Shown: piece by piece, positions 23,970 through 27,303 of the stretch | Layout: every line of letters starts with the position of its first letter | Position numbering within the stretch: position 1 is the stretch's first letter | Source: Pirellula sp. | GTDB taxonomy: Bacteria > Planctomycetota > Planctomycetia > Pirellulales > PNKZ01 | Assembly (NCBI GenBank): GCA_013822735.1 | Contig: PNKZ01000019.1 | Coordinates: forward strand, 1-64,000 | Direction: 5' to 3' | DNA: 64,000 bases | Notes under the pieces: model-generated | Databases searched by the model: none | Seen by the model: the letters and a program-made list of their open reading frames with translations, nothing else | What the model was told of the DNA's origin: nothing | Made by a program: the position numbers and the translations under genes

Positions 23970-24734
23970 ATGCGAAAAGCCCTTTGGTGTGCTCTTCTCT
24001 TACTGCCGGCAACGCTCCCTCAAGCGGCACGCGGCAACGAGCCCCGAAACGAGCCGGTGATCGCCACGTTTTCCATCGTGGCGTGCGACCCGGAAACGGG
24101 AGAGGTCGGCGCGGCCGTAGCGAGCATGTATCCGGCCGTGGGAAAAGTGGTGCCGTATGTGAAGGCCGGCGTCGGCGCGTTCTGCAGCCAATACCATCAC
24201 AACCCGGAGTTTGGCCCCAAGGCTTTGGTGATGCTGGAGACCGGCATGCGGCCGGAAGAAATCTTGGCCGAACTCTTGCGACACGATCCCAAGCCGGAGC
24301 ATCGGCAACTGGCGATCATCGACCTGCATGGTCGCGCGGCCAACCGCAACCCGACCGGTGCGACTGCCGGCGGCCAATGGTGGGGCGGCGCTTCGGGGCG
24401 GCATTACGCCGTGCAAGGCAACACGCTCGCGGGACGCAAGGTAGTCGTCGATATGGCTGCCGCCTACGAAGAGACGGACGGTACGCTGGCCGATCGACTG
24501 ATGGCCGCGCTCGTCGCGGGAGACGACGCCGGGGGCGATCATCGCGGTCGCCTGGCGGCCGGCATTCGCGTGGCGCGGGCTGCCGACGTAGGCAAGCCTG
24601 AAGCCAAAGACTTTTGGCTCGAACTCGACGTCGACAAGAGCGATGATGCCGTGAACGAGCTCGCGAAGAAGTACACCGAATGGAAAACCGCAGTCGAGCG
24701 GAAAACCGAAACTCCGACAGAACGGCAACCATGA
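23970..24734 (+). CDS. DUF1028 family protein, secreted
   Basis: The 254-residue protein has a Sec leader (about residues 1-22) and a DUF1028 domain: the opening TFSIVACDPETGEVGAAVAS, the central GAFCSQYHHNPEFGPKAL and the closing HYAVQGNTLAG with DRLMAAL. DUF1028 is a predicted Ntn-hydrolase-fold family of unknown activity. The last bases overlap the ATG of the Nudix gene (ATGA, 24731-24734), so the two are co-translated. Confidence 0.9.
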   Translation: MRKALWCALLLLPATLPQAARGNEPRNEPVIATFSIVACDPETGEVGAAVASMYPAVGKVVPYVKAGVGAFCSQYHHNPEFGPKALVMLETGMRPEEILAELLRHDPKPEHRQLAIIDLHGRAANRNPTGATAGGQWWGGASGRHYAVQGNTLAGRKVVVDMAAAYEETDGTLADRLMAALVAGDDAGGDHRGRLAAGIRVARAADVGKPEAKDFWLELDVDKSDDAVNELAKKYTEWKTAVERKTETPTERQP

Positions 24735-25423
24735 ACGAAGCGGAATTGCTTTCGACGAAACAGCTGACGAAAGAAAAATGGCTGAACTTGTTCGTACGCT
24801 CGTTCCGCCACGGCGGACGCACCGTGCGCTGGTTCTTTGCTTCGCGTAAGCAAAAGCCCGAAACCAAGCGCACGGCCGATGCGGTGTTGATCGTGCCGAT
24901 TCTGATCGACGGCGTCGCTGAAGGAACGGCCGAGCCGAAGCTCGTGGCGACGCGCGAATGGCGCGTGCCGATCTGGGATGCCGAATGGGGCGTCCCCGCC
25001 GGCTTGGTCGAAGCCGGCGAACCGTTGGAAGAAGCAGCCCGCCGCGAGTTGCTCGAAGAGACGGGCTACGAACTGGTCGAGATCCAGAAGGTGAGCCCGC
25101 CGAATTTTTCATCGACCGGCATGACCGATGAAGCGGTGGTGATCGTCTTCTGCACGTGCCGCACGCCGAAAGATTTCCGGCAACGGCTCGACGGCGCGGA
25201 ACAAATCGAAGTGCACCCGTTGACGATCGCCGAACTCGATCGCCTGGTCGACACCGACGAACCGATCAACGGCCGCGCCTGGATGGTGGCGTACATGTAC
25301 CAACAGCTCGGCCGGTTTCTTCTAGAAGCCGATCACCCGAAGCCGACCGCGAAGCCGCGCAAAAAGAAGCCAACCACCCCTGCCCCGCAGACTCGCCGCG
25401 GGGCGAAGAAGAAGCGGCGATAG
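24731..25423 (+). CDS. Nudix hydrolase
   Basis: A 230-residue Nudix enzyme. The box GX5EX7REUXEEXG is complete at residues 91-112 (G91, E97, R105-E106, E109-E110, G112), preceded by a strand with WRVPIWDAEWGVPAG, an arrangement typical of ADP-ribose or NADH pyrophosphatases. The N-terminal 45 residues are helical and basic; the C-terminal 30 residues are a Lys/Pro/Thr-rich tail ending KKKRR that may bind nucleic acid or be disordered. The ATG at 24731 overlaps the DUF1028 stop. The substrate is not determined by the sequence. Confidence 0.9.
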   Translation: MNEAELLSTKQLTKEKWLNLFVRSFRHGGRTVRWFFASRKQKPETKRTADAVLIVPILIDGVAEGTAEPKLVATREWRVPIWDAEWGVPAGLVEAGEPLEEAARRELLEETGYELVEIQKVSPPNFSSTGMTDEAVVIVFCTCRTPKDFRQRLDGAEQIEVHPLTIAELDRLVDTDEPINGRAWMVAYMYQQLGRFLLEADHPKPTAKPRKKKPTTPAPQTRRGAKKKRR

Positions 25424-25431
25424 GGTCGCTC

Positions 25432-25516
25432 GTAGGGTGGGTCGAACGAAGTGAGGCCCACGCGGTGAGCCGTATGTCTATTCCGCGTGGGCCTCGCGTT
25501 GCTCGACCCACCCTAC
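25432..25516. repeat. Imperfect palindrome, GTAGGGTGGGTCGA type
   Basis: The left arm begins GTAGGGTGGGTCGA and the right arm ends TCGACCCACCCTAC, with a second paired block GAGGCCCACGCGG / CCGCGTGGGCCTC inside, giving a long hairpin. The type resembles dispersed hairpin repeats seen between genes in several bacterial genomes. Confidence 0.75.
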
Positions 25517-25588
25517 AGGCCGGCCAAAAATCGCCTGGAGATTGCCTTGCCGTTTCGGTAACGTGCGGGGTGATCTTTGGCAATTTAT

Positions 25589-25691
25589 CGTAGTCCGCCA
25601 CTCCGTGGCGGAAGAGGGTTTTGCGCCGTCGTGGGCGATGGCCATCGGTAGGTGCTGTGAACGCGCTTTTCCGCCGCGGAGCGGCGGACTA
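25589..25691. repeat. Inverted repeat of TAGTCCGCCACTCCGTGGCGGAA type
   Basis: TAGTCCGCC-ACTCCG-TGGCGGAA at 25591-25612 faces TTCCGCCGCGGAGCGGCGGACTA at 25669-25691. Each arm is itself a small hairpin and together they form a larger inverted pair around a loop of about 55 bases. Confidence 0.7.
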
Positions 25692-25695
25692 CTTT

Positions 25696-25957
25696 GACGT
25701 AAGTCGCTGCCTGTGTTCGGCACTTACGGCGACGCTCGAAAACGGCCTGCGCACATAACTGGCGTTATCTGCGCACAACCCTAAAACCCACAAGGGGTGC
25801 GCAGATAACTCGACTTATGTGCGCAGATATGTTTTGGAAGTCGACGTAAGTCGCCCGAGAGGATTCCGACTTACGTCGATTTTGCGAGTCGCTATTTAGC
25901 CCGCCGTCGGCGACGGCGGGCGGCCCTCGGTCGCCGACCGGGGGCGAAATAGCTCGC
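25696..25957. repeat. Cluster of GACGTAAGTCG and TGCGCAgATAA palindromes
   Basis: GACGTAAGTCG occurs at 25696-25706 and again at 25842-25853 within GTCGACGTAAGTCG, with the inverse CGACTTACGTCGA at 25868-25880. TGCGCACATAAC and GTTATCTGCGCA form a 28-base palindrome at 25748-25775, and a related unit follows at 25797-25829. A final hairpin pairs GCGAGTCGCTATTT with CGAAATAGCTCGC (to 25957). Confidence 0.7.
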
Positions 25958-25971
25958 GTCGAGTTCCTGCC

Positions 25972-27303
25972 TTACGCGTACTTCTTCAGGAAGATGCACG
26001 AGGCTTGCCCCTGCGGCGTCACGCTGAGGTTCAAGAGCGAGGCGCCCGGGGTCGTCGTTTCGCGGACGACGTTGACTTGGCAGGCCGGGTCGGGCGTCTT
26101 GTAGTTGCGCGTGGGGAAGAGTTTGTCCTCGTGAAGCGAAAGCGCACCGGCGATGAGTTCCACAATGCCGCTGCCGGCCCCGAGGTTGCCGAAGTAGCTC
26201 TTCGCCGCGGTCACTGGAACGTCGGGCTTCATGCCGCCGAACACGTCGCGCAAGGCGCGGGCTTCGGCTTCGTCGCAGCTGTGCGTGGCCAGGCCGTGCG
26301 CTTGAATGTGGCCGACGGAAATCGGCGTCGCTTCGGCATCACGCAGAGCGGCACGCATCGCGTTGGCGAGCGACAGGTCGCGTAGCGCGACGCGGTTTTT
26401 ATCGGCGGCGGTCGAAGAGCCGTAGCCGACGACCTCGGCATAAATCGTGGCGCCGCGCGCCAGTGCGTGCGAGAGTTCTTCCAGGATGACGACGCCGGCT
26501 CCTTCGCCGAGCACCATACCGAGCCGATCAAGGTCGAACGGTCGGCTGGCTTCATCGGCGGGCACTTCATGGCCTTGATACTCGCCGACGGCGAGTTCTT
26601 CTTGGAGGGCCGAGTGCACGGCCTTCATCGTGTGGATGCGCGTGCCCGTGGCGCCGGCGATCATGATGTCGGCATGGTCGCGCTGGATGACGCGGAGGGC
26701 TTCGCCGACGGCGTTGTTGCCGGCCGCTTCGCGCAGGGTAAGCGAGTTGTTGGGGCCGCGCAGGTCGTTGTAGATGGCGATGTGGCTGGCCGGCATGTTC
26801 GGCAGATACTTGAGCAGCCAGAGCGGGGTCATCTTCGTCATGCCCTGCTGGGCCCACTGCTCGAAGTGGAACTTCTTTTCCTCGTCGGTGCAGGCCTGAA
26901 TTCCGGAGCCGAATTCCTCGGGCTCGCTGAGCATGTAGTCGGTGCCGAAGACGACGCCGGTCCGTTCGGGATCGCGGGTCGCGAGCGTGAGCTGGGAGTC
27001 TTGCAGGGCCCGTTCGGCGGCGGCGACGCCCATCTGGCACTCGCGGCACATGACCTTCAGGCCTTTGCGAATCGCCTTCTTCTTGTCGCCTTCCAGCGTG
27101 CCGAAGTTGTCGATCTCGCCGGTGAAGCCGGCGGCGCGGGCCACGAAAGGAGAGGGCAAAGCAGCGGCTTGAGCCGGTTCGAAACGCGAGATGCCGGTGC
27201 GGCCCGCAAGGAGCGCGTCCCACAATTCTTGACGCGAGTTTCCGAGCGGGCTGATCAACCCGACACCGGTGAGAACGACACGACGCGACGAAGGGCTGCT
27301 CAT
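25972..27303 (-). CDS. Beta-ketoacyl-ACP synthase homologue lacking the catalytic Cys
   Basis: The 443-residue protein is FabF-like over its full length: RRVVLTGVGLISPLG at the start, SRPFDLDRLGMVLGEGAGVVILEE in the centre and AHG near 336. The catalytic Cys-His-His triad is not kept: aligned to E. coli FabF, Cys163 is Glu192 (in REAAGNNAVGEA), the first His is His336, and the second His is Asn373 (in KSYFGNLGAGSG). The GFGGTN motif near the end is also missing. It may act like a chain-length or decarboxylating KS-beta subunit, or have a different function. The reading at the substituted codon (26728-26730) is unambiguous. Confidence 0.88.
   Translation of the reverse strand: MSSPSSRRVVLTGVGLISPLGNSRQELWDALLAGRTGISRFEPAQAAALPSPFVARAAGFTGEIDNFGTLEGDKKKAIRKGLKVMCRECQMGVAAAERALQDSQLTLATRDPERTGVVFGTDYMLSEPEEFGSGIQACTDEEKKFHFEQWAQQGMTKMTPLWLLKYLPNMPASHIAIYNDLRGPNNSLTLREAAGNNAVGEALRVIQRDHADIMIAGATGTRIHTMKAVHSALQEELAVGEYQGHEVPADEASRPFDLDRLGMVLGEGAGVVILEELSHALARGATIYAEVVGYGSSTAADKNRVALRDLSLANAMRAALRDAEATPISVGHIQAHGLATHSCDEAEARALRDVFGGMKPDVPVTAAKSYFGNLGAGSGIVELIAGALSLHEDKLFPTRNYKTPDPACQVNVVRETTTPGASLLNLSVTPQGQASCIFLKKYA

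Follow-up and report, generated by a model that had tools for sequence, protein, structure and literature searches.

A mosaic of repeated palindromes in a convergent intergenic spacer of a Pirellula genome

What are the palindromes that fill a single spacer between two convergent genes of a Pirellula sp., and do they belong together? The original prediction, made from the sequence alone, saw four kinds of palindromes and suggested a landing site for small palindromic mobile sequences, or else a nucleoid- or replication-related site. The present analysis takes as its starting point the window, the whole 64,000-nucleotide stretch analysed (contig C19:1-64000), and follows its palindromes through the rest of the genome (6.88 Mb, 38 contigs), three congeners (G001–G003) and more distant relatives.

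Results

Architecture of the spacer

The spacer (25424-25971) is palindromic along nearly its whole length and separates a convergent gene pair, which from reading the sequence we take to be a NUDIX-like gene and a beta-ketoacyl-synthase-like gene (Table 1). The predicted fold of the 526-nt stretch has an energy of -176.4 kcal/mol compared with -105.1 +/- 5.5 kcal/mol in 100 shuffles (z = -13), and none of the shuffles (0/100) folded as low. All of the palindromes named in the original prediction are present, at the GTAGGGTGGG, TAGTCCGCC, GACGTAAGTCG, TGCGCA-ATAA and GCTATTT sites, but the count of four has to be amended to five modules (E1, S12, E2, E3 and E4); the S12 repeat had been passed over. 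The GTAGGGTGGG hairpin of E1 has arms of 34 nt that are 88% complementary, and the TAGTCCGCC pair of E2 (25590-25616/25666-25692) is 89% complementary. Copies of GACGTAAGTCG begin at 25696 and 25843, with the complement at 25867 and a degenerate fourth arm at 25722.

Table 1. Positions of the spacer modules, their parts and the flanking genes within the window
Feature	Position	Strand	Description
NUDIX-like gene	24680-25423	+	Flanks spacer; name by sequence reading
E1	25432-25516	+	GTAG-headed inverted REP doublet, GTAGGGTGGG...CCCACCCTAC
S12	25518-25585	+	Conserved promoter-like leader module, GGCCGGCCAAAAA...TTTGGCAATT
E2	25590-25692	+	GTAGTCCGCC REPIN: two inverted hairpins, in the slot between S12 and E3
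Left A hairpin	25696-25734	.	GACGTAAGTCG...ACTTACGGCGACG; from alignment of 35 copies
E3 core, 130 bp	25722-25851	+	Outer arms ACTTACGKCGA/TCGACGTAAGT, two inner palindromes, 22-nt linker
Inner palindrome B	25748-25775	.	TGCGCACATAA...TTATCTGCGCA; TGCGCA-ATAA type
Linker CAACCCTAAAACCCACAAGGGG	25776-25797	+	22 nt; among the most conserved parts of the element
Inner palindrome B'	25798-25825	.	TGCGCAGATAA...TTATGTGCGCA; TGCGCA-ATAA type
Right A hairpin	25841-25882	.	TCGACGTAAGTCG...CGACTTACGTCGA; inverted repeat 94% complementary
E4	25891-25953	+	TATTTAG-headed doublet, GC-rich hairpins, closed by GAAATA
Beta-ketoacyl-synthase-like gene	25972-27303	-	Flanks spacer; name by sequence reading

Copy number and order of the modules

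None of five test motifs recurs elsewhere within the 64-kb window. Across the genome, counting each palindrome as the original prediction had proposed, all of the modules are multi-copy: at E <= 0.001 there were at least 79 matches for E1 (among the 40 of 77 candidates scored), at least 54 for E2 (40 of 59), at least 73 for E3 (40 of 103) and at least 51 for E4 (40 of 170), numbers that count both strands of the same palindrome and are neither locus counts nor complete. Uniqueness of each palindrome to this locus, named beforehand as the outcome that would sink the idea, is thus not what was found.

For a map of module order, the loci in the genome were merged into 81 stretches (248 kb), onto which E1-E4 and the segment 25517-25588 were placed; this outwardly plain segment, S12, turned out to be a repeat too. 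The order S12-E2-E3 on the same strand occurs in 12 and the order E3-E4 in 15 of the 81 stretches, the window being counted in both. Elsewhere in the genome the S12-E3 slot is occupied by E1 or by a GCAGGCACAC doublet accompanied by a purine-rich tract, or is empty, and the place 3' of E3 is variously taken by E4, a GTAGGGAACGCC doublet or a CGTCGGCCTTACGG repeat. A recognised REP head occupies the slot in 23 of the 38 type-I copies with S12, the heads coming from different families, and is absent from the remaining 15. Because this map recurs across loci, the GACGTAAGTCG and TGCGCA palindromes, which had been listed as separate kinds, are parts of one 190-bp unit, E3, laid out as outer arm A, palindrome B, 22-nt linker, palindrome B' and outer arm A'. 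Several contigs start (C4:1, C14:1, C31:1 and C28:1) or end (C18, C22 and C25) at E3/E4 composites, and with the assembly breaking there the true copy number is probably higher.

Subfamilies, dialects and host range

A covariance model built on 35 E3 cores (model R1, alignment A1) located at least 56 distinct loci in the Pirellula genome (111 matches, both strands, among the 150 of 2578 candidates scored). Ten of these loci score lower and are mostly variants. Some have the linker CATGTCCAAAAACGGGG...; in others, here called type II, the stems resemble TGCGCACTAA and GTCGGAGCGCTTACCAACAAGG serves as linker. A type-II pattern matched 40 times in the Pirellula genome, 17 times in G001, not at all in G002 and once in G003; the reversed pattern, used as a control, matched 1, 0, 0 and 1 times, respectively, so that the lone match in G003 is not above control. 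R1 and type II, which have three places in common, together give at least 93 distinct loci of the S12-E3 type. On the 3' side of type-II units (L181-L183, L243-L257) lie several hundred bases rich in more GCGCA palindromes, and the type-II element may thus be much longer than the part described here.

As far as searched, S12-E3 is restricted to the genus. Across 57 genomes (the Pirellula genome, three congeners and 53 others), R1 found E3 only in the genome itself and in two of the three congeners; with filters stricter than those of the own-genome search, it found no relatives in any of the 53 others or in congener G002. G002, at 99% completeness, has no E3, S12 or type-II match, yet six Y1 transposase matches. 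A search for the exact arm pair in a GTDB-based collection, from which records of the window's own genome may be omitted, returned 18 stretches from only two named assemblies, the Planctomycetota MAGs UWPOB_PLAC3 and new MAG-44, with positions that agree with the G001 and G003 loci. A viral origin was considered and discarded: two of three IMG/VR pattern scans were without match, and the two records from the third (L289:2584-2725 and L290:6066-6207) share one long, AT-rich palindrome, the same in both, which by chance has ACTTACGTCGA/TCGACGTAAGT arms and is otherwise unlike E3.

The same outer arms, ACTTACGTCGA/TCGACGTAAGT, are found in G001 and G003 as well, and the interior of the element is written in dialects. 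G003 has inner stems TGCGCATCTAT with linker CATTTAAGTAAGACAATAGGGG, many G001 copies have inner stems GTGCGCACTTC with linker ACATACTTAGGAATTAAGGG, and linkers of similar size and other sequence occur in other subfamilies. Set against the stems and linkers of the Pirellula genome, these dialects reveal a concerted change, from one subfamily to another, of all four inner arms along with the 22-nt linker.

Such an interior could be read by a protein, with S12-E3 as a DNA site for chromosome organisation, uptake or recombination and the TGCGCA palindromes as paired operators. The two near-identical palindromes per copy, the symmetric outer arms, the species-differing dialects and a non-random placement at gene ends (below) are in keeping with this, but the loop between the palindrome arms varies by one base among copies, which is at odds with a fixed core for recombination; no protein linked to the element was found, and congener G002 is without any copies. 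We regard a protein site of this kind as improbable. The dif/Xer-type site, of 11-6-11 bp with a fixed 6-bp core, was ruled out for the B palindrome by the variable loop length among the 35 copies. It is extremely improbable that E3 encodes a small peptide. While a frame stays open through the unit in all G001 copies with an ATG before the left arm (14/14), synonymous changes are not enriched in that frame (0.199 observed vs 0.231 expected), variation is even over the codon positions, and other subfamilies carry single-base indels.

Placement at gene ends and partial conservation between species

Based on a simple codon-usage gene caller, the 47 type-I copies lie between tandem genes on the same strand as the copy (14), convergent genes (13), tandem genes on the opposite strand (7) and divergent genes (2), with the rest inside a called ORF (3) or at contig edges (8). 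The location at convergent gene ends that the original prediction had proposed to test is borne out relative to divergent sites, but tandem sites are the commonest. In 27 of the 36 intergenic copies the left gene is on the same strand (p = 0.002), and the copies are located mostly at gene 3' ends.

Some of these positions are shared between species. Immediately 3' of the G001 ortholog of the NUDIX-like gene (77% identity) lies an S12-E3 element, oriented as in the window; its slot is occupied by another doublet, and the gene that follows differs. No such element follows the G003 ortholog. When 156 ORFs beside 78 elements of the Pirellula genome were compared with 41 element loci of G001 and G003, 14 links reached at least 50% identity; side and strand agreed in 13, and 12 lay within 600 bp of the partner element. 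Among 139 control ORFs, which came from the window and from loci that carry E1, E2, E4 or a Y1 gene but no E3, four were matched and one lay within 600 bp. One-sided Fisher tests gave p = 0.0027 for the adjacent class and p = 0.024 for any match, values that are approximate because both genes flanking the spacer are among the controls, links that share a locus are not independent, and the list was already known when the 600-bp limit was chosen. Subfamily is not conserved with position, since none of the 12 adjacent links pairs type II with type II. Only one flank is kept per partner locus, and so rearrangement at the repeats, gene-end hotspots and in-place replacement are all possible. At L228, L152, L247, L275 and L196, genes that flank elements in the Pirellula genome occur in new pairings around G001 elements, a pattern expected if chromosomes had undergone recombination at these repeats or if contigs had been wrongly joined there. 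MAG misassembly at repeats is a possible alternative source of the shared neighbourhoods.

A more far-reaching interpretation, which we rate as rather unlikely, would make S12-E3 a genus-specific structural element that bears a promoter and is kept at certain gene ends, its inner palindromes being read there by a trans-acting factor. The specificity of this factor would drift between species, with dozens of scattered copies altering all four inner arms and the linker in step beside the same genes, and the element would also serve as a docking slot for REPINs. Should this be true, S12-E3 would constitute a dialect system at gene 3' ends.

The S12 leader and a possible transcript

The S12 model (R2) matches 51 times in the Pirellula genome and eight times in G001; the 10 other genomes covered gave no match. 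Among 110 E3-type copies with enough flank, a GGCCGGCCAAAA-type motif occurs within 700 bp upstream in 100 and downstream in 7. S12 of the window contains TGGAGA (25536-25541), followed after 17 nt by TAACGT (25559-25564), and across the subfamilies TGGAA or TTGAA precedes a TANNNT or GATAAT-like hexamer by about 16-18 nt. This spacing suggests that S12 may be a promoter. At one locus (L250) the S12 match is contained in a longer ORF prediction and precedes what may be an internal start. At another (L249, in the C18:3452 region) an S12-like module is followed within about 150 nt by a hairpin and T-run, making it a candidate for a short transcript with an intrinsic terminator.

A promoter-like leader ahead of a long hairpin brings up the alternative that S12-E3 encodes structured non-coding RNAs, a family driven by the promoter and retained for its function, in which the stems would be a species-specific 'dialect' and a conserved single-stranded linker would touch a target. 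The upstream position of S12 in nearly all copies, a single fixed S12 spacing in 14 of the 18 G001 copies of that genome's main subfamily, the recurrence of the two hexamer-like motifs across subfamilies, conservation of the linker beyond its surroundings, the concerted change of the four inner arms and the partly kept position between species would all suit an RNA. Conversely, Rfam at gathering score yields only a tRNA in the 64-kb window, with all low-threshold matches to the spacer below gathering scores. Type I varies little, and its covariation, seen at 3 of 35 pairs, is not above shuffling, in a test made weak by second-palindrome arm offsets that were off by one base. The standard promoter scan found no sigma-70 site in the spacer, the promoter pair score is only 0.3-1.1 above shuffles in families with five or more members, and the terminator scan found no intrinsic terminator in the spacer. 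On balance, an RNA family is unlikely.

Enzymes linked to the REP modules

Pfam Y1_Tnp matches eight places in the Pirellula genome, seven of them above the curated cut-off. One is a RAYT gene between two E2 REPINs (C9:188205-189059, with the Y1_Tnp match at C9:188361-188594 in a 215-aa ORF), which scores 32.2 bits against the Pfam cut-off of 23, matches NCBIfam REP_Tyr_transpos at E 4.2e-18 (65.6 bits, under the curated cut-off of 80) and matches the TnpArep structure PDB 4er8 at E 0.0019. E2 thus has a GTAG foot, an inverted hairpin pair, many copies and a RAYT gene that it flanks, features by which REPIN/RAYT systems are recognised.

The copies of E4 cluster at C1:501735-503343 on both sides of a Y1-like ORF (C1:502760-503230; L112:2496-2999 and L313), 157 aa long from the chosen ATG. 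The protein itself has no Pfam or NCBIfam match. Among 10 members of its family, three (Pfam) and four (NCBIfam) have weak matches to Y1 families, the family profile weakly matches four PDB chains, all transposases (E 0.08-0.39), and the alignment of these members has a conserved H-x-H motif and a conserved Y in YVERHN. We consider, with moderate confidence, that the protein may be a divergent Y1 enzyme for TTTAG-type REPs. The family is present in 35 of the 246 genomes of the order that were searched, the Pirellula genome included, and five of 14 homologous loci, again including its own, have flank 14-mers repeated at least four times. Doublets of TTTAGCCC/TTAGCCC...GGGGCTAA flank the homologue on both sides at L317 and L321, and heads and tails of this kind occur in the flanks at L314. 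In most matching genomes the family is single copy, and TTTAGCCC-type hairpin doublets lie alongside in several planctomycetes.

For E1, a cognate RAYT was not found: none of the eight Y1 loci of the genome is flanked by E1. The remaining Y1 loci have no E1 or E3 motif within about 1.5 kb; among them, a CGTCGG-repeat match occurs at one, and an S12-type match lies at some distance from another. The S12-E3 arms flank none of 24 Y1 loci in four genomes, with a single stray arm match at two, and no autonomous partner with the same terminal inverted repeats (TIRs) was found among these Y1 genes, the class searched. The associated REP-type transposase that the original prediction proposed to look for is present for E2 as a RAYT and probably for E4 in divergent Y1-like form, but no gene was found for E1.

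Discussion

The spacer is probably a BIME-like nested mosaic, in which RAYT-mobilised REPINs lie in and around a new MITE/ERIC-like element, S12-E3. The backbone would be S12-E3 itself, a promoter-like leader and then a long hairpin made up of outer arms of 11 bp, a pair of inner palindromes and a linker that is conserved, behaving like a miniature element of the ERIC or Correia type. REPINs would have inserted into this backbone, E2 into the slot and E4 and E1 next to the element. In the available parts of the REP literature, RAYT-like enzymes recognise the foot of a single-stranded hairpin and copy or move the doublet (PMC3733652, PMC6006769), and by extension the most likely route for E2 and E4 is movement of single-stranded DNA after RAYT-like Y1 enzymes have cut it at the hairpin foot. 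To such enzymes the hairpin-rich S12-E3 may present a tolerated intergenic target beside gene ends. S12-E3 would have spread within the genus and been homogenised in each genome through repeated spread from few masters or through recombination; its own movement would be compatible either with recombination among the copies or with a transposase that has been lost or has escaped recognition.

This mobile mosaic is supported by modules that are all multi-copy and ordered, the varied REP heads in the slot, the flanked enzyme genes of E2 and E4, and E3 relatives in two of three congeners and none of 53 other relatives. Counting against it are the lack of a transposase gene with S12-E3 arms at its ends among the 24 Y1 loci of four genomes, the partial conservation of position across species, which is unusual for an actively moving element, and E1 being without a cognate enzyme in this genome. 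The idea of a landing site was largely right, because E2 and E4 each flank a Y1-type gene in the genome and E2 occupies a slot that holds other REPINs at other loci; what it missed is that the largest palindromes form a genus-specific composite element. Nothing observed here speaks for the other suggestion, a nucleoid- or replication-related site.

The small repeats of this phylum have been little described. The mosaic contributes a large palindromic element with a defined order, and likely enzymes can be named for two of its parts, E2 and E4. Its dispersed repeats keep their neighbourhoods between species and not their own sequence type, which opens the question of whether repeated palindromes undergo replacement at their sites, insert anew at hotspots or are favoured by selection at gene ends.

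Comparison with known systems

The BIMEs of E. coli are mosaics that combine, between genes, palindromes of several kinds with non-palindromic linkers, one order being preferred, and the spacer resembles them in this. What sets it apart is a promoter-like module, a long hairpin of 130 bp whose arms resemble TIRs, and the combination of several unrelated REP families in one array.

Compared with REPIN/RAYT systems, as covered in the available parts of PMC3733652 and PMC6006769, E2 is alike in its GTAG foot, inverted hairpin doublet, intergenic copies and RAYT gene between REPINs, and unlike in that the E2 REPIN sits inside another ordered repeat. E1 shares the GTAG foot but has no RAYT that was found, and E4 departs from the scheme through its TTTAG foot. 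The E4-linked gene is also reminiscent of the class 3 TnpA-Y1 of Planctomycetes, being Y1-like and flanked by several hairpins that are also scattered genome-wide; from the portion of PMC6006769 at hand, class 3 has a CnGA foot and a Y----Q motif, and this label was ruled out for the E4 enzyme by the foot TTTAG and a tyrosine motif that ends YVERHN.

S12-E3 has short TIRs, a size of 100-200 bp (130 bp for the E3 core, the whole unit with S12 and slot being longer) and no coding capacity. In size, long stem-loop, short terminal inverted repeats and intergenic location it is similar to the ERIC/IRU and Correia/NEMIS MITEs, and Correia elements also carry putative promoters, according to the accessible part of PMC2229807. 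As far as the descriptions in that part go, the A-B-linker-B'-A' layout sets S12-E3 apart from these MITEs, as do four inner arms and a linker that differ by subfamily and species (PMC2229807). Among the matches listed for literature on Planctomycetes repeats, REP/RAYT, ERIC/IRU and mosaic elements, none described S12-E3. The REPINs here are new members of the known REPIN kind, and S12-E3 is a MITE/BIME-like element of a new variety, whose behaviour between species is unusual. The staphylococcal STAR elements, in the sections available of PMC3532100, are likewise intergenic repeats with loci that are stable within a species; STAR loci are not common to different species, whereas some S12-E3 gene neighbourhoods are.
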